Source: Longimicrobiales bacterium (lineage in GTDB: Bacteria; Gemmatimonadota; Gemmatimonadetes; Longimicrobiales; Gaopeijiaceae). From it: 32,747 bases of DNA. Below, piece after piece: positions 6,817 through 26,177 of the stretch. The stretch's first letter is position 1; the number at the start of each line of letters is the position of its first letter. Made by a program: the position numbers and the translations under genes. The notes below the pieces were generated by a model. That model made no database searches and was not told the DNA's origin. It saw nothing but the letters and a program-made list of their open reading frames with translations. The stretch covers positions 1 through 32,747 of the forward strand of contig JANQDZ010000049.1 of assembly GCA_028278645.1 (NCBI GenBank), written 5' to 3'.

Positions 6817-9800
6817 ATGAGACGGTTCCATGGGCTCCCGGGGGCCTTTCCCATGTTCGGTCTCTTGGCAGCCACCGTGCTCTGCGGTGCTTCATCTGCC
6901 GACGCTTCGGCCGCCAGGCCTTCCGCGCTCTGGATCCAACCCGACGACGCACAACGACAGGCCGATCCATCCAGCCTCCGCATCGACCTCCCTCGGACCC
7001 ACCTCTCCGGCTATTCACAGGACGTCCGGGGCGAGGTCCTGAACTACCACTCCCCTATCCCAACCATCAACAGCTCCCTCCTGGTCCGGTCGGAGGACCG
7101 GGTTCGGTCCATCGCCTGGGAAAGCCAACCCGTGCCTCCTGATCTCGGGGAGGAGGTGGTCACCTTCGCGTTGATGTTGGGAATCGACGTGAACGTCGAT
7201 CCCCGGACTTTCGACTTTCGGGTGAACGGCCAGGACGTTTTTCAGATCCAGAACCCGACCGAAGCATCGCTGGGCCAAACCATGGTTTGGGAGGGCCAGG
7301 GTATCCGCGGCGAGTTCAGGGTGACCTTCATGGATCGGTACGGCGACGCCATGGGGTTTTTCTTCCTCACGATCCCCCGACACTTCTGGGAGCCCGGAGA
7401 GGCTGTCCAGTTCGAGGTCTTGGGAGAGAGCGCCGGTGCTCGGACCTGGCTCCTGGTCTTCCGAGACCCCCTGGAGCCCTATGTCCGGCTGAACAACGCC
7501 CCGGCGGTGGTTCGAACCGACGAAGGGGAGGCCCAGATCATCCGGTTGGACCTGCTGACCCTTGGTGAGAGGGACCGCTTCAGGATGGAGAGCGCCATCG
7601 GCTCTGTGGACTCCGTAGTGACCATGGGGCACAGCCGGTTCACTCTTCCGGTCCCGGCTGTAGAGGTGCCTCGGGATGTGGATCTCGAGCTGTTGCTGGG
7701 AAGCCACCGAACCGAGGTCTCTTACCAGGTCACGCCTCCTCGCCGAATGGAGATCCATCTCCACCACCACACCCATCTGGACATCGGATACACCCACCAC
7801 CAAGACGAAGTCGAAAGGCTTCAATGGGCTCACCTGGAGGAGGCCCTCCGACTGGGGGAGGAATCGGAAGGCTACCCTGAAGGGGCACGGTTTGTCTGGC
7901 AACCGGAAGGCATCTGGCCCGTGGACACCTATGTCCGAGCCCACCCCGGAGAGAAAACCGACCTCCTCCTGGAGGGGATTCGCCGGGGTTGGATCGAGCT
8001 GGACGGTATGTATGCAGGACTCCTCACGGGCCTCGCCAATGAGGAAGCTCTTCTCCGTGCTTTCGAGGCCGCTCGTCGCCTCGGCGAGTTGAGTGGGGTC
8101 CCCATCGAGTCCGAGATGGTGAGCGACATCCCCGGATTTTCATGGGGGCTGGTAGAGGCGATGAGCCGGCACGGCCTGAAATACTTATCCATTGGGCCGA
8201 ACTTCGGACACCGCATCGGCCGCCTGACTGAAGAGTTGGGTGACCAGCCTTTCTATTGGGAGGGGCCATCGGGGGAGAGTCGGGTCCTGACATGGGTTTC
8301 CGGCGGAGGCTACGCTTGGTTTCACACAGGCTTGGGGTACGACTCAATCACCGCTCGCTTGGACGAGGAGAAGGTCTTCCGTTACTTGGACCAGTTGGTC
8401 TCGACCGACTACCCGTACGACCTCTCATACCTCCGCTATAACATCGGGTCCGACAACGGTCCCCCCGACCCGGAGCTGGCCCGGTCCGTCCAAGACTGGA
8501 ACCAGCGTTACGCGTCTCCCGTCCTCCGCATCGCCGGAATGACGGAAACCTTCAGGGAATTCGAAAGGCGTTACGGATCGACCCTCCCGACATACCGCGG
8601 GGATATGACGGGTCATTGGGAAGATGGTGCGGCCTCCTCGGCCCGAGAAACGGCCATGGTCCGGAGAGCGGCCGAGAATCTCGTCCAGACAGAAAAACTT
8701 GCGGGCCTGAGAGGGGCCGAGCTGGATTCGGACGCACTGAGGGAAGCCTGGCGTAACGTCCTTCTTTTCTACGAACACACATGGGGGTCCTGGAACTCCA
8801 TCAGCGAACCCTACTCTGATCTCACCGTCACGTCTTGGGAACGAAAGAAGGCATTCGCGGAAAAAGCGGCGGAACTGGCGGACCATCTGAGATCTACAGC
8901 CCTATCCGACACCGGCGAGGACACGGAGCGGAAGATCGCGGTCCACAACACCCTGCCCTGGCACCGGTCCGGCCTCGTGGTGCTTCCGGCTGAAGCGTCA
9001 AGGGAGGGGGACCGGGTCACGGAGCTTGGACGGGGTCCGGTTCCCTCCCAGCGCCTGGCCTCAGGCGACCTGGCGTTCCTGGCGAGGGATGTGCCTGTGG
9101 AAGGGATCAGAGAGTTCAAGGTGGAGCCAGGCGCTGCGTACCCGGCCCCAGAATCGGGCGAGCCGGTCGGCGGCACTGTCGCGACCTCGACCTACGAACT
9201 GACAGTGGACGACTCAGGGCAAGTCACTTCTTTGGTCCACAGGCCGAGTGGCCGTGAGCTCATCGACAGTAGCCAGGGCGGCTTCAACCAATACGTCTAT
9301 GTTCCCGGGAGGGACCCCTCCACGGCCGTCTCCGCGAGACCTGAAACCATACGTTGGATCGACGAAGGCCCCCTCGTATGGACCCTCGAAATCACCACAC
9401 CGGGGAAAGGCCTTCGGGAACCGGTCGTCACCCTGGTCCGGCTCGTTGAGGGCCTGGACCGGGTCGAGATCTCGAACCGGATCGCGAAGGAGTGGGTCCT
9501 GGATCCGGAAGCCGTCCTTTTCCGGTTTCCCCTCGCGATCGAAGAGCCTGAGGTCCGGTTCGACGTCCCCTTCGGAGTAGTCCGCACCGAGGAGGACCAG
9601 GTCCCTGGGTCATCAAAAAACTACTTCAGCATTCAGCGCTGGGTGGACGTGTCCGACGAGCAGGGCGGAGTGACTCTTACCAGCGTTGACGCCCCCCTCA
9701 TTCAGCTGGGTGAGATCAGAACCGATCCGATCGTGGCGGGCTGGTTGGGCCGGGCCGAGCCTTCGGCCACCATCTATTCCTACGTGATGAACAACTACTG

Positions 9801-11442
9801 GGAGACGAATTACCGGGCTGCTCAGGATGATGATGTAGAGTTCCGATACTCCCTCCGAGCTCACGGGCCCTTCCAGGCCGAAGAAGCGGAACGGTTCGGG
9901 CTGGACGAGGCAAGGCCGTTGGTCGTGCGGGAAGTAGGTCCCCGCCCCACTGAGGCCGACCTCCTAGGGACACCGCCCGAAGTGCCCCGTGAGTTTCGGG
10001 CTGCTTGGGTGGCAACGGTGGCAAACATCAACTGGCCGAGCCGGCCCGGATTGCCGGTGTCCCAACAGAAAGACGAAGCCCTGGCCCTGCTGGACCTGTT
10101 GGACAGCCTGAACTTCAACGCTGTCATCTTCCAGGTCCGTCCCCAAGCCGACGCATTGTACGAGAGCGAGATCGAACCGTGGTCCTACTACCTCACCGGC
10201 ACGCAGGGCCAGGGGCCAGATCCATTCTACGACCCGCTGACTTTCTGGGTGGAGGAGGCCCACAACCGGGGTTTGGAGCTCCACGTCTGGCTGAACCCCT
10301 ACCGGGCCCATCACACAAGCGGAGGGGAGGTCACCGAGGCCTCCATCGTCAGGCGGAAACCAGAGTTGGTGGTGTCCCTCCAACAGGGCTTCTGGTGGAT
10401 GGATCCGGCGTTGGAGGGGACGCAGGCCCACTCGTTGGAAGTGGTGAAGGACATCGTCCGACGTTACGACATCGATGGAGTCCACTTCGACGACTACTTC
10501 TATCCCTACCCGGAATACAACGGTGGTGAAGACTTCCCCGACCACAAGAGCTGGGAAGAATACCTACGAAACGGCGGGCAACTCCCCCGGGGAGATTGGC
10601 GGCGGGAGGCGGTAAACACCTTCATTCGCCGATGTTATGACGCAATAAAGGCAGAAAAGCCCCACGTGAAGTTCGGCCTCAGCCCCTTCGGGATCTGGCG
10701 TCCTGGGAATCCCGGATCGATCCAGGGCTTCGACCAGTACAGTCAGCTCTATGCCGACGCCCGCCGGTGGCTGAACGAAGGTTGGATCGACTACTGGACT
10801 CCCCAACTCTACTGGCCCGTGAACCAGATCCCTCAGAGTTATCCCGTCCTCCTTGGGTGGTGGACGCAGGAGAACCCACTGAATCGACATATCTGGCCGG
10901 GGATCAACATCGGGAACGTTTCTGGGAACGAAGGCGTGGACGAGGCCGTCAATCAGATCATGATCACCAGGGGGATGATCCCGTCCGGACCCGGGAACGT
11001 GCATTGGAGTATCGGACCCCTCGTTTCCCGGGACACTCTGGCCCAGGGGATCCGGAGTGGTCCCTACTCGGAGGATGCACTGGTTCCGACTTCCCCATGG
11101 CTGGACGACCAAGCCCCGGCCGTGCCTATCGTGGAGGTGGCGGTTGACGGGCTTGAAGCGCGGGTGAGTTGGGGGCATCCCGATCCCGACGATGTCTTCA
11201 AGTGGGTCCTATACCATCGAACGGGAGATCGTTGGAGCTACGGGATCCTGAACCGAGGGGAGACGGAGGCTTTCATCCCCCTGGAGTTAACACCGTCGGG
11301 GCAATCCACCCGGACCGGAAGAGCTCCCGCATCCGAACAGGGGAGCAGTGAGGCTTCGACTCTTACCGCCGTGGCCGTGGCGGCCGTGGACCGAACTGGG
11401 AATCAGAGCCAAGCCGTCGTTATCCCGGTGCCTTCCGGTTAA
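6817..11442 (+). CDS. Exported GH38 alpha-mannosidase fused to a GHL10 (DUF187) glycoside hydrolase-like domain
   Basis: 1541 residues with signal peptide (MRRFHGLPGAFPMFGLLAAT to ADASA) and a good ribosome site (GGGAGGGG) before ATG 6817. After about 300 residues of beta-rich N-terminal region comes a GH38 domain: zinc motif HHHTHLDIGYT (about 316-326), SDIPGFSW with the probable Asp nucleophile (about 437), FYEHTWGSWNS (about 651), and a long beta-sandwich ending near YVMNNYWETNY (about 990). A short linker leads at about 1055 into REFRAAWVATVANINWPSRPG, the start of a GHL10 domain with FNAVIFQVRPQADALY, HVWLNPYRAH, DGVHFDDYFYPYPEY and YWTPQLYWP. A C-terminal Fn3-like segment (about 1430-1541) closes it. 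GH38 cleaves alpha-mannosides; the GHL10 substrate is uncertain. The stop shares TTAA with the convergent M14 gene. The fusion is uninterrupted. Confidence 0.9.
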   Translation: MRRFHGLPGAFPMFGLLAATVLCGASSADASAARPSALWIQPDDAQRQADPSSLRIDLPRTHLSGYSQDVRGEVLNYHSPIPTINSSLLVRSEDRVRSIAWESQPVPPDLGEEVVTFALMLGIDVNVDPRTFDFRVNGQDVFQIQNPTEASLGQTMVWEGQGIRGEFRVTFMDRYGDAMGFFFLTIPRHFWEPGEAVQFEVLGESAGARTWLLVFRDPLEPYVRLNNAPAVVRTDEGEAQIIRLDLLTLGERDRFRMESAIGSVDSVVTMGHSRFTLPVPAVEVPRDVDLELLLGSHRTEVSYQVTPPRRMEIHLHHHTHLDIGYTHHQDEVERLQWAHLEEALRLGEESEGYPEGARFVWQPEGIWPVDTYVRAHPGEKTDLLLEGIRRGWIELDGMYAGLLTGLANEEALLRAFEAARRLGELSGVPIESEMVSDIPGFSWGLVEAMSRHGLKYLSIGPNFGHRIGRLTEELGDQPFYWEGPSGESRVLTWVSGGGYAWFHTGLGYDSITARLDEEKVFRYLDQLVSTDYPYDLSYLRYNIGSDNGPPDPELARSVQDWNQRYASPVLRIAGMTETFREFERRYGSTLPTYRGDMTGHWEDGAASSARETAMVRRAAENLVQTEKLAGLRGAELDSDALREAWRNVLLFYEHTWGSWNSISEPYSDLTVTSWERKKAFAEKAAELADHLRSTALSDTGEDTERKIAVHNTLPWHRSGLVVLPAEASREGDRVTELGRGPVPSQRLASGDLAFLARDVPVEGIREFKVEPGAAYPAPESGEPVGGTVATSTYELTVDDSGQVTSLVHRPSGRELIDSSQGGFNQYVYVPGRDPSTAVSARPETIRWIDEGPLVWTLEITTPGKGLREPVVTLVRLVEGLDRVEISNRIAKEWVLDPEAVLFRFPLAIEEPEVRFDVPFGVVRTEEDQVPGSSKNYFSIQRWVDVSDEQGGVTLTSVDAPLIQLGEIRTDPIVAGWLGRAEPSATIYSYVMNNYWETNYRAAQDDDVEFRYSLRAHGPFQAEEAERFGLDEARPLVVREVGPRPTEADLLGTPPEVPREFRAAWVATVANINWPSRPGLPVSQQKDEALALLDLLDSLNFNAVIFQVRPQADALYESEIEPWSYYLTGTQGQGPDPFYDPLTFWVEEAHNRGLELHVWLNPYRAHHTSGGEVTEASIVRRKPELVVSLQQGFWWMDPALEGTQAHSLEVVKDIVRRYDIDGVHFDDYFYPYPEYNGGEDFPDHKSWEEYLRNGGQLPRGDWRREAVNTFIRRCYDAIKAEKPHVKFGLSPFGIWRPGNPGSIQGFDQYSQLYADARRWLNEGWIDYWTPQLYWPVNQIPQSYPVLLGWWTQENPLNRHIWPGINIGNVSGNEGVDEAVNQIMITRGMIPSGPGNVHWSIGPLVSRDTLAQGIRSGPYSEDALVPTSPWLDDQAPAVPIVEVAVDGLEARVSWGHPDPDDVFKWVLYHRTGDRWSYGILNRGETEAFIPLELTPSGQSTRTGRAPASEQGSSEASTLTAVAVAAVDRTGNQSQAVVIPVPSG

Positions 11443-19770: not shown

Positions 19771-21714
19771 CTACCTCCTGGTGAAATAGTCCAGATCGAA
19801 CGTGGACAAGATCAAATAATGGTCGGAAGGGAAGCCCCCCTGGCGCGTCGATATCACTGCGGTCGAAGTATTGGAAAGTCCGGTACCCTTGTAGTACAGC
19901 TGGTCGATCCTCCGACCACTGCGGTGAGAGGCTCCGGGGTACTGGTCCACGTCTGGATAAAGGCTCCGGAAACCATCGGTGAACCCCGCTTCCAACAGTG
20001 CTCTGGAGGCTGGACTGTCTCCGCCGTCAGTGTGGGGAACAGCGTTGAAGTCCCCTCCGAACAGGGTCGGGATTTGGTCGGATTCCTGGAACCGATGCTG
20101 ATGGAACTCAAATACCGCAGGGAACTGATCCATCCCATACCAGTTGGACATCACGTACAGGTCCTGCGTGCTGCTGATCGAGACCTTCGTCCCGACATTC
20201 TGGAAGGGTGAATCGTCTTGCACGTACAGGTCTCCGATGGGGAACCGGCTGATCACAGAGATGTTCGAACCCTGGTTCAGGTAATCCCAATCGACGGTGG
20301 TGGCAAAGAAGTACCCAAGCTCCGCGGCGATGAAGTCTCCGGAAGAGTAGGTCTCCTGCATCATGACCACGTCGACCTTTCTCTCCCGAATCATCTCGGC
20401 GATTGCGATCCTGGAATCCCATCCATCCTCCTCGACGGTCCAGTGCTTGCCACCGTGCCAGATATTCCAGGCAGCAGCCGTCAAAGCTTCCAGTTGGTTT
20501 TCCACTTCAGGCCCACTGGGCTCAAAAAACTCTGCGTAGGAGGCCCCGACCTCCTCGGGAGACAGGGCGCGGTCCCAATACCCCAGGTTGTCGATCTCGA
20601 ATTCAGGCGGATAGAGCCTCTCCCGTTCGGCAAACAACTCGGCCGCTTCCTCCCGGATGACAACCTCCCCATCCACTAGGGAATAAACCTTCGAAACCGG
20701 CGCAATCCCTGTGAAGTTCAGATTCTGGTGGACCGTATACGGGTTCGACATCAGTACGGATTCGGCCTCCCGGATGGGCTCCCAATCCACCGTCTCCATA
20801 GCCTCACGGAAGGCGAGGCTGTCCGCGCCCTGACTAGCCGCAGCATCACCCACCTTCCGGTCGAAAACCCTCCTCGGTTCGGAAATCAGTGGAAGAAAGT
20901 CCTCCGGTTGAACAGGGCCAAGATCGAAAGCGTTGAACGCGTCGACCAAGACCTGTAGCTCTTGGGCACCTTTCAAAATGTCAGGCAGGATCCCGGGTCG
21001 GGAATCCACTCCGTCGCCTTCCCACCCCACGACCAGCGGATTCGAGTTGGAGAAGTCGAAACCATCGGAATCGCTTACGTGATAAGAAACCCAGTTCACC
21101 CCATCAAAAAAAAGCCGGACCTCCGCCAAGGCGCTGTTGTGGGTCATGGTGAGCTGATGCCACCGGCCATCGTTCAGAGGCATATGCTGGCCATTGTCCC
21201 GTTCGTAAGTCAGGCGGCGGGAGCCCGACCCAAGGCTCCAAGCCCAGGTCCCGTTCGAGTGATAGAAAACCCAACCCGGCGCCTTCTGGGATTGGAGGCT
21301 GTTATCAGGAAACTCCTTTTGCGAGAGGACCACAAAACGCCTGCCTGCCTCTGCATCGGTTCTCACCCAGAACTGGACCGAGAAATCCTGACCACTGCCA
21401 TTCGGAAGGCCATCGATGTTGTAAGAGACGCTCCCCGACGAGCCTCCCGGCCCGAGCCGGAGAGATTGCCCCTCCAAACCATGAACGAATGCGGTGTTTC
21501 CAGAAATGGCACCCGTGTGGGTGGGGTCGACTTGGCCCTCGGCATCTCCATCGAACCGGAAAAAAGCAACAGGACTGGGCGTGGCCTGGAACTCGCCGGC
21601 GTCAGTGAAGGCTATTCTTTTCGGCCCTCGGTCCACACCGCCAGCCTGGAAGAAATAAACGCCGCCGGTCAGGACGAAGATGCTCAGGAGCACCACCCCA
21701 GGTTTCCTACTCAT
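19771..21714 (-). CDS. Exported LamG-endonuclease/exonuclease/phosphatase (EEP) fusion
   Basis: 647 residues. An N-terminal signal or anchor helix (GVVLLSIFVLTGGVYFF) is followed by a LamG/concanavalin-like domain (about 47-235). The typical closing element of such a domain (EIDNLGYWDRALSPEEV) appears only at about 373-389, so about 135 residues are inserted. The C-terminal EEP domain (about 411-647) has WNIWHGG (Asn416), MQET (Glu454, metal ligand), GGDFNAVP (Asp555, Asn557), RRIDQLYY and the catalytic SDH (630-632). The nuclease/phosphatase residues are intact. Likely an exported phosphodiesterase, phosphatase or DNase held on a carbohydrate by LamG. It lies 47 nt downstream of the M14 lipoprotein on the same strand, probably co-transcribed. 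Confidence 0.87.
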   Translation of the reverse strand: MSRKPGVVLLSIFVLTGGVYFFQAGGVDRGPKRIAFTDAGEFQATPSPVAFFRFDGDAEGQVDPTHTGAISGNTAFVHGLEGQSLRLGPGGSSGSVSYNIDGLPNGSGQDFSVQFWVRTDAEAGRRFVVLSQKEFPDNSLQSQKAPGWVFYHSNGTWAWSLGSGSRRLTYERDNGQHMPLNDGRWHQLTMTHNSALAEVRLFFDGVNWVSYHVSDSDGFDFSNSNPLVVGWEGDGVDSRPGILPDILKGAQELQVLVDAFNAFDLGPVQPEDFLPLISEPRRVFDRKVGDAAASQGADSLAFREAMETVDWEPIREAESVLMSNPYTVHQNLNFTGIAPVSKVYSLVDGEVVIREEAAELFAERERLYPPEFEIDNLGYWDRALSPEEVGASYAEFFEPSGPEVENQLEALTAAAWNIWHGGKHWTVEEDGWDSRIAIAEMIRERKVDVVMMQETYSSGDFIAAELGYFFATTVDWDYLNQGSNISVISRFPIGDLYVQDDSPFQNVGTKVSISSTQDLYVMSNWYGMDQFPAVFEFHQHRFQESDQIPTLFGGDFNAVPHTDGGDSPASRALLEAGFTDGFRSLYPDVDQYPGASHRSGRRIDQLYYKGTGLSNTSTAVISTRQGGFPSDHYLILSTFDLDYFTRR

Positions 21715-21761: not shown

Positions 21762-23048
21762 CTACCTCCGCTGCGCCTCCTGCATCAGGACCTCCATGGT
21801 CCCTCTCGCCGCGGTGGTGGCCACCTCACGAATCAGTGCTCGATCAGTTTGATCACCGACCTCATAGATCAAAGCCGGAGCTCCGAATTCGCGATAGAAC
21901 CAGTTCCGAGAAGTGGGAGTGGCGAGCCCACCAGGGGAGTCGTTGACAACGTAGTCCGGGAGATGGGTATCGATGTAATCCAGCCACGGATCGATGATCC
22001 CCGCCGGATCGGTCTCGAGATCCCTCTGCAAGGTGTAGAACACGTCACGTTGGGTTGAGTGGAAGTCCACACCGAACCAGAGTTCGTGGCCCGGATCCGC
22101 CAGAATCTCAGAGTAGGTCTCCCTGACTACACGGGTCTCGGGCTGGTTAAAGGCCACCCAGTCACGATTCAGGTCCACGCCCCCGGTGTTATGGCGCCAA
22201 TGACCCAGGTCTACCCCGTCGGGGTTCACCAGGGGGATCACGTGGACACGGAAATCCTCCCGGAATTCCTGAGCCAAAGGAGAGTCCCCGGCCAGCTCTT
22301 CCACAAAAGCCAGGAGAGCCATGGTGCCGGTGACTTCAGGGGGATGCTGGCGACCGATGATCATGACGTGCTTCGTGGCCGCCGGATCCCCGAACTGCAC
22401 CATGGGCATGGCTCTGCCCCGGCCGGAACGCCCCGCGATCGTCTTCGAGATATGTGGCTCCCGTGCGAGGCTGTCGGTCCAGGAGTTGAAGAAGGACGAG
22501 GTCATCATCTCTTGTCCCGCAACCCATAGGGTGTCGGGTCCCACGCGGAGGCGGAAGGTCGCCTCGTTGGCATTTCGGTCGATGGCCACGTCGGCTGAAT
22601 CCAAAGGTGCCCAGGCTTCCCCACCGCGTCTGGCCTCCGGCCAGTACCGGTGGGAACCGCCTTCATACGTGAGGGTGACCTCGATCCATTTCGCGTCTTC
22701 CGACCAAAGCTTAAAGGCGTACCACGCGCTGTTGTTGACCGGCGAGTTTTCGGGGCGGAGATGAACCACGAACTCCGAGTCTCCCTCCTGCCAAGCATCG
22801 CTGACCCGACCGCCGTCGAGTTCATTGCTGATCCAGACCCCCGATTCGGTGAACCCGATCGTTCGGCGGTGCATGTCTTCGATGGGCCTGGTCTCCGAAA
22901 TGGCCAGGGTGGGGGCATCGGAAGAGGCGGCGGCACGGCCGCCAGCTTGGGGAGGGCCCCCTCCAGGAGCAACTGGGCTCCCAACGGGCCCGGCCGGGGA
23001 GCAGCCTGCGAGGGCAAGAAGTGAAACGCAGAGAGTTCTCTTGTTCAT
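21762..23048 (-). CDS. M14 family zinc carboxypeptidase, lipoprotein
   Basis: 428 residues. The lipobox LALAGC puts the lipidated Cys at 16, followed by a Pro/Gly/Ala-rich linker and an N-terminal beta-domain (about 45-190). The M14 domain then shows GRQHPPEVTG (zinc His235, Glu238), NPDGVDLGHW, GGVDLNRDW (Asn294-Arg295), GVDFHST (zinc His330) and ALIYEVGDQT (catalytic Glu396). This layout (about 140-residue N-domain plus catalytic domain) resembles cytosolic-carboxypeptidase-like M14 proteins. Predicted to remove C-terminal residues from peptides at the envelope. ATG 23048 with GGGAG 5 nt upstream is chosen over longer in-frame starts, because it begins the lipoprotein signal. Confidence 0.9.
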   Translation of the reverse strand: MNKRTLCVSLLALAGCSPAGPVGSPVAPGGGPPQAGGRAAASSDAPTLAISETRPIEDMHRRTIGFTESGVWISNELDGGRVSDAWQEGDSEFVVHLRPENSPVNNSAWYAFKLWSEDAKWIEVTLTYEGGSHRYWPEARRGGEAWAPLDSADVAIDRNANEATFRLRVGPDTLWVAGQEMMTSSFFNSWTDSLAREPHISKTIAGRSGRGRAMPMVQFGDPAATKHVMIIGRQHPPEVTGTMALLAFVEELAGDSPLAQEFREDFRVHVIPLVNPDGVDLGHWRHNTGGVDLNRDWVAFNQPETRVVRETYSEILADPGHELWFGVDFHSTQRDVFYTLQRDLETDPAGIIDPWLDYIDTHLPDYVVNDSPGGLATPTSRNWFYREFGAPALIYEVGDQTDRALIREVATTAARGTMEVLMQEAQRR

Positions 23049-23279
23049 GGGATCTCCCGGGCGTGACGGCCTGATAGGTCGTTGTGGATTGTTCCTTCTC
23101 CGGGTTGGAGTGTAGGGCGGAAGGCACCGGCGAGGAAAGGCCGGGACCAGACCCCAGGTCGACACCCAAGCCTGGATCGGCTTTCGTTCGGCCCTCTTCC
23201 TTTTCAGCACCGGCGATCCGCCCTCCTGGACCGGGCCACACACCAACCGGCCCGGGAGCCACTTGCGATCCAGCTACTG

Positions 23280-23295
23280 TGTGATCAGAATCACA
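23280..23295. promoter_or_regulatory. Crp/Fnr-family operator upstream of the heme-copper operon
   Basis: TGTGATCAGAATCACA is a perfect inverted repeat around a central AGA-type spacer. It matches the Crp consensus TGTGA-N6-TCACA and also the core of Fnr/Dnr sites (TGAT-N4-ATCA). Its centre is about 77 nt before the start codon at 23365. A TAGGTT hexamer at 23317-23322 would place a -10 box so that the site centres near -41.5, the class II activation position; that part is speculative. This is the main feature I see in the 316-nt gene-free stretch 23049-23364. Confidence 0.75.
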
Positions 23296-23341
23296 TAATC
23301 CCACCACAACAACAATTAGGTTCGCTTCGACGCAGCTATTT

Positions 23342-23359
23342 GAACCCTCTGAGGAACGA
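23342..23359 (+). repeat. 18-bp direct repeat copy B in a 5' leader
   Basis: Exact second copy of GAACCCTCTGAGGAACGA (first at 18272-18289). Here the GAGGAA within it lies about 8 nt before the ATG at 23365 and probably serves as the ribosome-binding site. Confidence 0.7.
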
Positions 23360-23364
23360 TTCCC

Positions 23365-23931
23365 ATGGTGGATTCAGCCGTCGTACTCTGGGGCCAGACA
23401 CTGGCCTACACCCTGTACTGCCTGGTCATGATCTCCCTGGTGGGTTGGTTCGGGTACAGGGTCACTAGAGCAACAGAAGGCCCAGGCGTCAGACCCGCTT
23501 ACTTCTACACATTCGTCGGGTTTCTAGCGGTCCTCGGCGTATCCCTTCACATCATCACCTACAACACAATCCCCTGGACTGCCATGGATCTGCACCGGGG
23601 GGACTACACGCCTGACAAGACATTTGAGATCAGGGTGGCGAACCACGAGTTCCAGCTGCCAGCGGAAAGATTGGAGATCGACTGCAGCGAGCTTGTCCTG
23701 TTCGATGTGACATCGGAGGACCTCACCTACGGGTTCGGGGTGTTCCGGCCTGACCACTCAATGGTGTTTCAGATGCAGGTCGTACCGGGACACCGGAACG
23801 ACATCCTCTGGAGATTCGAAGAGGACGGGATCTACACCATTCGGTCCACCGAATACTCAGGGCCGAGGGGGGTGTTCATGATCATGGAAGATGTGGTGGA
23901 GGTCACCGGGTGTGGGGTAGCGGACGCCTGA
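23365..23931 (+). CDS. Heme-copper oxidoreductase subunit II-like protein with CuA ligands lost
   Basis: 188 residues. Two membrane helices (about 13-32 and 47-68) are followed by a periplasmic cupredoxin domain: ANHEFQLPAERLEI, FDVTSEDLTYGFGVF, VVPGHRNDILWRF and IYTIRSTEYSGPRGVFMIM. Aligned to the CuA pattern C-x3-C-x3-H-x2-M, residues are Ser161, Ser165, Gly169 and Met172, and the earlier His (D-V-x-H-S-F) is Tyr122. So the copper site is almost certainly absent, as in quinol-oxidase CyoA. It probably docks the catalytic subunit and may shape quinol access rather than accept electrons from cytochrome c. First gene of a two-gene operon, 31 nt before subunit I. Confidence 0.85.
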   Translation: MVDSAVVLWGQTLAYTLYCLVMISLVGWFGYRVTRATEGPGVRPAYFYTFVGFLAVLGVSLHIITYNTIPWTAMDLHRGDYTPDKTFEIRVANHEFQLPAERLEIDCSELVLFDVTSEDLTYGFGVFRPDHSMVFQMQVVPGHRNDILWRFEEDGIYTIRSTEYSGPRGVFMIMEDVVEVTGCGVADA

Positions 23932-23962
23932 TCCGATTCACGTCAACGACCGAGCGATAATC

Positions 23963-25582
23963 ATGTCTTTCAAAGAGACGTTCATGAAGGGTGAGCAGGG
24001 GCTCTTCAAACCGGACTCCCTTACCCCCATGCAGAAGATCGTCCTCCGATTCGTCGTTGTGGGATTGGTCTTCTATCTGTTTGCCATTGTCGAGGGGATG
24101 ATCATGCGGATGTATCAGATCACCCCTCTCCCCTTCGTCAGCGAGGAGCAGTTCTTCGCCATCCTCACGGCCCACCCCCTGGTGGGCATTTTTGGATCGA
24201 CTTACTCCCTGGTTTGCGGGGCTTTCCTCTTCCTCGTGCCTTACCTCATGAAGAAGCCGCTGTGGAGCATGAAGGCGGCAAACCTCACCTGGATCTTCAT
24301 CGCCGTGGGAACCCTGGTCTTCTGGGCAGCCGGTTTCATTTCCCACTATGCTCCGCTCTACACGCTCTACTGGCCGCTGCCGGCCGACTTCTCACAGTTC
24401 AGCCTTTGGGGCGGCACCATCTTCGTGGTGGGAATCGCTTTGGTGATGGTGGGAAGCGCGCTGTTCGTCATCAACGTGTTCAAGACCATCACCTACACCC
24501 CGGAGGGTTGGGAGAAGCAACCGGCGGGTGCCTTGCTGGGGTCGGCAATCGGCTACAGCGGGTTCAAGAACCTGTTCCGACGACGCAAGGAAGAACACCT
24601 GGTCCCCCTTCCGGTGGCAGCCATCGCCCGTGGCTCTGTGGACATGGCACTGAACACGACGGTCATCCTCTTCACCGGGGTTCTGATCCTCGTGTATATG
24701 GTGGCCGCCATTTTCGGGACCGACCTCTCCCAGACCGCGGTAGACGCACTGCTCTACAAGAACTGGTTCTGGTGGGGTTTGGATCTCATCGCCGATGGCC
24801 TGGTGCTCATCTTTGTAGCCGGCACCTGGTACCTGTTGGCCATGATGATCACCGGCAGGAAGCTCTTCATGCAGAACATCGCTCGTGCGGCGCTTCTGGT
24901 GGAGTTGGTGGTATCCTGGACGGTGTGGTCCCACCACCTTCTCTCGGACCAAGCCCAACCGGCGATCCTCAAAGTGGTCTCGGGAGAGTTGGTCACCGCC
25001 TTCGAGCTCATCACCCAGGGCCTGGCGTTCTTCATCACGTTGGCAACGCTCTGGGCGGCCCGCCCCCTGAAGATGACCAACGAGCTCAAGTTCTTGCTCG
25101 GGGGTCTTCTTGGATTCGCCCTGGCGGTCCCCGCAGGCATCATGCAGGCCGACGTTGGTCTCAACCGGATCCTCCACAACACCCAGTGGATCGTAGGACC
25201 CCACGTTCACGTGGCCGTCCTGGTAGGCCTGACGATGACCCTGTACGCCGCGATCTACATCCTCTTCCCGATCGTCACCAATGGGGCGAAGCTCTACTCC
25301 CAGAAGCTTGCAAACTTCCATTTCTGGGGACACCTCCTTGGCGGGATCGGAATGGGTGCGTTCATGGGAATGGCGGGACTCCAGGGAATGCTGCGACGTT
25401 CCCTCTACGTGGAAGGGGAGTTCGGGATCTACATGATCCTGGCAGGCCTCTCCGGAGCGTTGTTGCTGGCAGCGTTCCTGGCCTTCTTCCTGAACATCGT
25501 CATGAGCATAGGGCTTCAGGGCGTTATCGGGATCTTCATGCCCGCGAAGCTCAAGACGTCCGACATGGTTCCAGCCGAGTAG
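23963..25582 (+). CDS. Heme-copper superfamily subunit I, probable noncanonical nitric oxide reductase
   Basis: 539 residues with 12 or more membrane helices. Ligands read from the sequence: low-spin heme His71 (TAHPLVGIFG) and His416, high-spin heme His414 (VGPHVHVA), and CuB/FeB His324-His325 (WSHHLLSD). The third CuB/FeB ligand position is Asp274 (FWWGLDLIADG), not His. Four residues later, where NorB has Glu and A-type oxidases have the cross-linked Tyr, it has Asp278. Spacing from 274 to 324 (50) and 325 to 414 (89) matches NorB closely. With no active-site Tyr, oxygen reduction by the usual mechanism is unlikely, and NO reduction is the best guess. Its partner lacks CuA, suggesting quinol as donor. 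The Crp/Fnr-type operator upstream fits low-oxygen or NO control. Exact family is not assigned. Confidence 0.85.
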   Translation: MSFKETFMKGEQGLFKPDSLTPMQKIVLRFVVVGLVFYLFAIVEGMIMRMYQITPLPFVSEEQFFAILTAHPLVGIFGSTYSLVCGAFLFLVPYLMKKPLWSMKAANLTWIFIAVGTLVFWAAGFISHYAPLYTLYWPLPADFSQFSLWGGTIFVVGIALVMVGSALFVINVFKTITYTPEGWEKQPAGALLGSAIGYSGFKNLFRRRKEEHLVPLPVAAIARGSVDMALNTTVILFTGVLILVYMVAAIFGTDLSQTAVDALLYKNWFWWGLDLIADGLVLIFVAGTWYLLAMMITGRKLFMQNIARAALLVELVVSWTVWSHHLLSDQAQPAILKVVSGELVTAFELITQGLAFFITLATLWAARPLKMTNELKFLLGGLLGFALAVPAGIMQADVGLNRILHNTQWIVGPHVHVAVLVGLTMTLYAAIYILFPIVTNGAKLYSQKLANFHFWGHLLGGIGMGAFMGMAGLQGMLRRSLYVEGEFGIYMILAGLSGALLLAAFLAFFLNIVMSIGLQGVIGIFMPAKLKTSDMVPAE

Positions 25583-25648
25583 GGGAGAGCCGGCTTAGAA
25601 GAAAACGACGCGTTGGGTGTGGGTGCGTCGGAAGGCGGATAAGAAGGG

Positions 25649-25689
25649 GAAGCCGAGGGCCAGGAGTTGGTCCTCGGCTTCTTTTCTTG
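25649..25689 (+). terminator. Intrinsic terminator after the heme-copper operon
   Basis: GAAGCCGAGG (25649-25658) pairs perfectly with CCTCGGCTTC (25672-25681), followed by TTTTCTT. It ends the two-gene operon and separates it from the lipoprotein gene downstream. Confidence 0.9.
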
Positions 25690-25793: not shown

Positions 25794-26177
25794 ATGTTCA
25801 AGCGACTGACCACCGCAGCGGCCCTCGGACTGTTTCTGAGCGCCTGCGCAGGTGGCGCACCAGCCGAACCACCGGCACCACCGCCATTCAATCCCTCTGG
25901 GACGTACGATATCACCGTCGCGGCCGAGGGCATGGAGATCGGCGGAGTAATGGTGATCGAAGGAGATGCGGAGGTGGGCTTCACCGGTAGCGTCGACACC
26001 GAGATGGGCGGAGCCGCTCTATCCGACATAATGTTGGATGGCCAAACCATGACGTTCTATATCCCCGAAGCCGACGCCGACGTGACCATCGTCTTCGACG
26101 GAGACAGCTTCAGCGGCGGTATGACAGGCGCCATGGGAGGAGCCGACTTCTTCGGTACCAAGCGAAAGGGCGACTGA
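25794..26177 (+). CDS. Small secreted lipoprotein of unknown function
   Basis: 127 residues. The lipoprotein signal has lipobox LSAC (Cys18), followed by a Pro/Ala-rich linker (APAEPPAPPPF) and a beta-strand-rich domain of about 95 residues (SGTYDITVAAEGMEIGGVMV, then VGFTGSVDTEMGG, IMLDGQTMTFYI). Such short beta-domains occur in outer-membrane or periplasmic lipoproteins with no known activity. GGAGG lies 4 nt before ATG. It has its own leader after the terminator of the heme-copper operon, so co-regulation is not implied. Confidence 0.8.
   Translation: MFKRLTTAAALGLFLSACAGGAPAEPPAPPPFNPSGTYDITVAAEGMEIGGVMVIEGDAEVGFTGSVDTEMGGAALSDIMLDGQTMTFYIPEADADVTIVFDGDSFSGGMTGAMGGADFFGTKRKGD

Follow-up and report, generated by a model that had tools for sequence, protein, structure and literature searches.

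The window, which is the whole stretch of 32,747 nucleotides that was analysed, carries a two-gene unit on the forward strand, in which the gene for subunit II precedes that for subunit I of a putative heme-copper enzyme. The unit is flanked by a divergent M14 peptidase gene (21762–23246, reverse strand) and by a small gene for a lipoprotein-like product (25794–26177, forward strand). The latter, which has no Pfam family, is also present in a genome of the same genus (G001). At 19771–21714 the window encodes a 647-aa protein that combines a LamG-like domain with an endonuclease/exonuclease/phosphatase domain. The features of the operon are:

23280–23295, forward strand: Crp/HcpR-like palindrome TGTGATCAGAATCACA, a perfect TGTGA-N6-TCACA located 85 bp 5′ of the subunit II start codon
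23365–23931, forward strand: subunit II, with two predicted TM helices and a cupredoxin domain of the CuA type in which the copper ligands are missing
23963–25582, forward strand: subunit I, heme-copper oxidoreductase catalytic subunit of 539 aa (Pfam COX1; fold matches to heme-copper oxidases)
24173–24175, forward strand: codon of His71, low-spin heme ligand (TM2), invariant in 82/82 sequences
24782–24784, forward strand: codon of Asp274, replacing the third CuB/FeB His as judged from conservation, spacing and profile-HMM alignment
24794–24796, forward strand: codon of Asp278, replacing the cross-linked Tyr of oxidases and the Glu of NorB/qNOR as judged from conservation and alignment
24932–24937, forward strand: codons of His324-His325, remaining CuB/FeB ligands (TM7), invariant in 82/82 sequences
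25004–25006, forward strand: codon of Glu348 (TM8), at the alignment position of the SALE-motif Glu of qNOR, where A-, B- and C-type oxidases have a hydrophobic residue
25202–25210, forward strand: codons of His414-x-His416, high-spin and low-spin heme ligands (TM10), invariant in 82/82 sequences
25649–25687, forward strand: likely intrinsic terminator read from the sequence, with a 10-bp stem (GAAGCCGAGG/CCTCGGCTTC) followed by TTTTCT; a scan flagged an overlapping hairpin

The metal site of subunit I and the cupredoxin of subunit II

Subunit I matched Pfam COX1 (PF00115) with an E value of 4.5e-55, and none of the NCBIfam oxidase models scored above its cut-off. A first-pass annotation had described the retention of five of the six canonical histidines and an Asp at the remaining CuB/FeB position. 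The open reading frame, the conservation among homologs and the alignment to Thermus ba3 bear this out: H71, H324, H325, H414 and H416 are retained, and these residues as well as D274, D278 and E348 show no variation in an alignment of 82 sequences, which comprise homologs 72–100% identical to the subunit I of the window. The same site residues were found in the more distant homologs L149–L151 (53–54% identity) and in a homolog from Chloroflexota (L167, 43%). Since both Asp residues and the rest of the site are invariant and are kept down to 43% identity, the conservation indicates that the metal site, unusual as the annotation had called it, is under strong selection and belongs to a real enzyme, with no decay.

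The assignment of the two Asp residues depends on the register in TM6. Profile-HMM alignment to Thermus ba3 was gapless in this stretch and placed D274 at the CuB His and D278 at the Tyr, in a register that we infer, as MAFFT and hhalign open a gap near these two residues. The distance from D274 to the His-His pair is 50 residues, compared with 49 from the corresponding CuB/FeB His in A- and B-type, 50 in C-type and 51 in qNOR enzymes. By sequence inspection no His occurs at residues 213–323; together with the spacing, this argues that the third His is missing whatever the register, and it leaves no other residue of TM6 to act as the third His. Against qNOR, the TM6 sequence WWGLDLIADG aligns with WWVVHLWVEG, which puts Asp278 at the position of the qNOR Glu; the earlier placement of an Asp four residues after the lost ligand, at the oxidase Tyr and NorB Glu position, is therefore supported by both alignments. 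The predicted lack of a cross-linkable Tyr also stood, because the canonical position is occupied by D278, the alternative Tyr position of the C family aligns with Ser328, and no Tyr is present at residues 291–427.

At the K-channel positions of helix VIII the alignment gave Gln352 and Ala355, the latter at the position of the A-type Lys, and the adjacent polar positions are replaced; the structural model is too poor to exclude another proton path. This AlphaFold model is weakest at the active site, with pLDDT values of about 54–60 near residues 261–280.

For subunit II, the predicted model combines a cupredoxin fold with two TM helices, and the fold has its best matches in Thermus ba3 subunit II and in CuA domains. 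Alignment to CuA domains placed Tyr122, Ser161, Ser165 and Gly169 at the ligand positions His, Cys, Cys and His, respectively, while Met172 of the CuA site is retained. The Ser/Ser/Gly replacement noted before was thus recovered and extended by Tyr122, and the alignment identifies subunit II as a cupredoxin of the CuA type whose copper ligands have been lost. In the Chloroflexota relative, the most distant one, a separate short ORF seems, as read from the sequence, to encode the N-terminal TM helix of subunit II. A subunit II ORF of 403 aa in genome G049, which is of the same order as the window, was considered as a domain fusion and rejected, as it is an upstream in-frame extension with the conserved start inside.

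Placement among heme-copper enzymes

A profile built from subunit I and its homologs gave the best match with Thermus ba3 (E about 1e-16), followed by A-type enzymes from about 7e-14 and C-type enzymes at about 1e-8 or weaker. Profile-profile comparison showed similarity to both the A-type (E 6e-30) and the B-type (2e-28) and none to qNOR. Parallels between the acidic residues of subunit I and those of qNOR would therefore be convergent. NO dismutases are qNOR-like, and this assignment was dropped for the same lack of similarity. In a heme-copper tree the family of the operon formed its own long branch (100/100), whose deep position is unreliable owing to long branches and a misaligned qNOR; for the same reasons the tree was set aside as an arbiter between an A-type and a B-type origin.

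Thermus ba3, a B-family enzyme, is the best sequence match among solved structures for both subunits and shares the TM10 signature HNTxW...HxH. However, the three traits of a B-family O2 reductase, namely three CuB histidines, the cross-linked Tyr and CuA in subunit II, are all replaced here, and the helix VIII K-channel positions differ as well. With cNOR and qNOR (NorB) the enzyme has in common an acidic residue four positions after the third metal ligand, the Glu in TM8 and the lack of the cross-linked Tyr, but NorB holds FeB by three His and a Glu (HLWVE), where DLIAD is found here, and the operon enzyme has neither a cytochrome c nor a fused qNOR domain. The eNOR, sNOR and bNOR enzymes are proposed or shown NO reductases that are related to the B family and have an altered Tyr position (PMC11388526), traits that recall the operon enzyme. 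They differ in that they have Gln or Asn at this position (PMC8756737 Table A4), whereas Asp278 occupies it here.

The closest agreement in described traits is with gNOR. In gNOR enzymes an Asp is also found at the position of the third His. The published summary gives one active-site Asp, at the Tyr-equivalent position (PMC8756737 Table A4), and describes two subunits, with subunit II a cupredoxin (PMC8756737); the enzyme is quinone-oxidising and non-electrogenic (PMC8906906). gNOR (norGH) has been proposed as the NO reductase of Sulfurimonas, Sulfurovum, Persephonella and Ca. Methylomirabilis, quinone-oxidising and without a proton channel (PMC8756737, PMC8906906, PMC6094997). It is a sequence-based proposal and is absent from the biochemically characterised NOR families given in PMC11388526. 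In the operon enzyme, D278 provides the Asp at the Tyr position (82/82 and the distant homologs, in the register of the ba3 HMM alignment), there are two subunits, subunit II is a cupredoxin that with Tyr/Ser/Ser/Gly would be unable to hold CuA, and the K-channel positions are replaced, although another proton path may exist. On the other hand, two Asp residues are present compared with one in the published summary, a comparison made by description. As the Asp and the loss of CuA fit the published traits, and the enzyme was set beside gNOR by published description rather than by comparison with a labelled gNOR sequence, membership in this family is probable, though not proven. The suggestion that the combination with a CuA-less partner might be new was not supported, since an Asp-bearing, two-subunit, quinone-oxidising enzyme with a cupredoxin subunit II had already been described as gNOR (PMC8756737, PMC8906906); the CuA-less pairing is probably this known layout.

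Carrier genomes and regulatory context

The enzyme is widespread: a scan of GTDB contigs yielded 231 relatives. The best 80 of these were mostly from Bacteroidales, and their record titles also include Ignavibacteria, Acidobacteriota, Spirochaetes, Anaerolineae, Deltaproteobacteria and Gemmatimonadota. None of these 80 comes from Sulfurimonas, Sulfurovum, Persephonella or Methylomirabilis, the hosts named for gNOR. In even genome samples, whose counts include the centre genome, the distribution was sparse, with 12/395 in the phylum of a Bacteroidetes carrier, 4/297, 4/379 and 2/301 in three other phyla and 2/395 in the phylum of the window itself. The genes for subunits I and II are paired in nearly all loci. 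A plasmid collection gave distant heme-copper relatives only (about 22–30% identity among the matches listed), and a scan of viral contigs gave no relative. One relative lies in a 1.2 Mb genome recorded as Patescibacteria BroJett037 (L089), an assembly that may be mixed or wrongly labelled, and in genome G423 (L065) the gene is apparently present twice (C71 and C90), in addition to a qNOR-like protein.

The genome of the window encodes three heme-copper proteins: an aa3 oxidase with the HPEVY motif, a cbb3 oxidase and the operon enzyme. A NorB-type enzyme, NirK and NrfA were not found in this genome, and NirS gave a weak match. A NosZ cluster is present and is headed by an Rrf2 gene (173 aa, Fe-S-type), whose product is 26–34% identical to the Rrf2 proteins encoded beside relatives of the operon. 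This cluster (G000 C39:164000–180000) also encodes Rieske-, cytochrome b- and cytochrome c-like proteins. Among 25 carrier genomes, several of which are incomplete MAGs so that gene absences are soft, NrfA was found in 13 and a qNOR-like protein of about 750 residues in three, and the operon enzyme was the sole heme-copper protein found in six.

An Rrf2 gene lies directly 5′ of the subunit II gene, on the same strand and at a distance of 2–129 bp, in 46 of the 74 loci whose upstream region is long enough to judge. The encoded proteins carry a C-x6-C-x5-C motif. Among the NCBIfam models the Rrf2 superfamily scored above its cut-off and NsrR, IscR and RirA below theirs; the IscR/Suf/RirA models outscored NsrR and all equivalog cut-offs were missed, so that NO sensing by these regulators is at most a possibility. 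The conserved Rrf2 regulator is the main functional clue added by the gene context and suggests a link to NO. Other recurrent genes nearby are hemerythrin-like (four loci) and Crp-like (four loci).

No Rrf2 gene lies beside the operon of the window. Its upstream region contains the Crp/Fnr-type box of the first-pass annotation, which proved to be a perfect TGTGA-N6-TCACA and the single match in the window, against a chance expectation of 0.47 for matches that allow at most one mismatch. The box agrees with the HcpR consensus wTGTGAnnnnnnTCACAw (PMC1274295), and HcpR and NsrR are both regulators of nitrogen-oxide metabolism (PMC1274295). Boxes of this kind with up to two mismatches were found upstream in 18/78 relative loci, compared with a mean of 7.7 and a maximum of 14 in 30 shuffles; several are located 79–91 bp from the start in loci without an Rrf2 gene. 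An FNR/DNR-type box (TTGAT-N4-ATCAA) was also tried and showed no enrichment upstream of the relatives. Taken singly, the box in the window weakly suggests regulation by a Crp-like protein.

Proposed function and alternative readings

We consider it likely that the operon encodes a two-subunit, CuA-less enzyme from the A/B side of the heme-copper oxidoreductases that reduces NO to N2O and belongs, most probably, to the proposed gNOR family. NO had been put forward as substrate before, and the gene context backs this: it is favoured by the Rrf2 neighbour, by the box in the window and by a genome that has aa3, cbb3 and NosZ but was found without a NorB-type enzyme. The reaction would be 2 NO + 2 e− + 2 H+ → N2O + H2O. 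Because subunit II appears unable to hold CuA, electrons would pass from quinol directly to the low-spin heme (His71/His416) and from there to the high-spin heme (His414) and a non-heme metal. Quinol is the donor that we infer from the absence of both CuA and a cytochrome c domain and from the descriptions of gNOR. The non-heme metal would be held by His324, His325 and Asp274 and is more likely to be iron than copper, with Asp278 and perhaps Glu348 near it as a ligand or proton relay. The enzyme might serve in NO detoxification or in the use of NO under nitrosative stress, induced in most relatives by the Rrf2 Fe-S-type regulator and in the window perhaps by a Crp/HcpR-like regulator.

In oxidases the cross-linked Tyr gives an electron for cleavage of the O–O bond, and an enzyme lacking it would be expected to reduce O2 poorly. 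The alternative of a quinol:O2 reductase whose site is atypical, and which perhaps works at very low oxygen despite the lost Tyr and His, would be in keeping with the nearest relatives of solved structure, which in sequence and fold are A- and B-family O2 reductases, and many carriers encode other heme-copper oxidases, so that some of them meet O2. We nevertheless regard this as improbable, given that the cross-link Tyr and the third His are absent from every homolog examined, that the operon enzyme is the sole heme-copper protein found in six of the 25 carriers and that the gene conserved beside it encodes an Rrf2 regulator of the Fe-S type. A substrate other than NO or O2, or a role as an NO sensor or scavenger instead of a respiratory enzyme, seems very improbable. 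We know of no characterised precedent for an Asp-substituted heme-copper site, which leaves some room for such a role, but conservation is strict for the heme ligands, the two CuB/FeB histidines and the acidic residues, and the two genes are paired nearly throughout.

Whatever its family name, the enzyme is likely to be an NO reductase. Doubt attaches rather to the name, since gNOR was compared by description, two Asp residues stand against the one of the published gNOR summary, and the named gNOR hosts are missing from the best 80 of 231 relatives. These points would suit an unnamed separate family (or nNOR) of similar general chemistry. A separate family of this kind would have a non-heme site of two His and two Asp, an origin from A/B oxidases, acidic residues convergent with those of NorB and a role in nitrosative stress in anaerobic, nitrite-ammonifying Bacteroidales. 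We think such a family unlikely, because the Asp at the Tyr position, the loss of CuA and the two subunits match the description of gNOR, and the replaced K-channel positions may do so too.

If the operon enzyme reduces NO, then N2O would be produced from NO by many Bacteroidales and other bacteria in which the gene would be labelled "cytochrome oxidase". With its two invariant Asp residues the site would offer a natural test of how a carboxylate ligand tunes the second metal and of which changes convert an O2 reductase to NO reduction, and the conserved Rrf2 neighbour provides a directly testable link to NO. In a Chloroflexota relative (L168, G1694 C99, about 7900–10000), a type II NADH dehydrogenase gene precedes the two subunit genes by about 250 bp, a position that would fit the quinol route.
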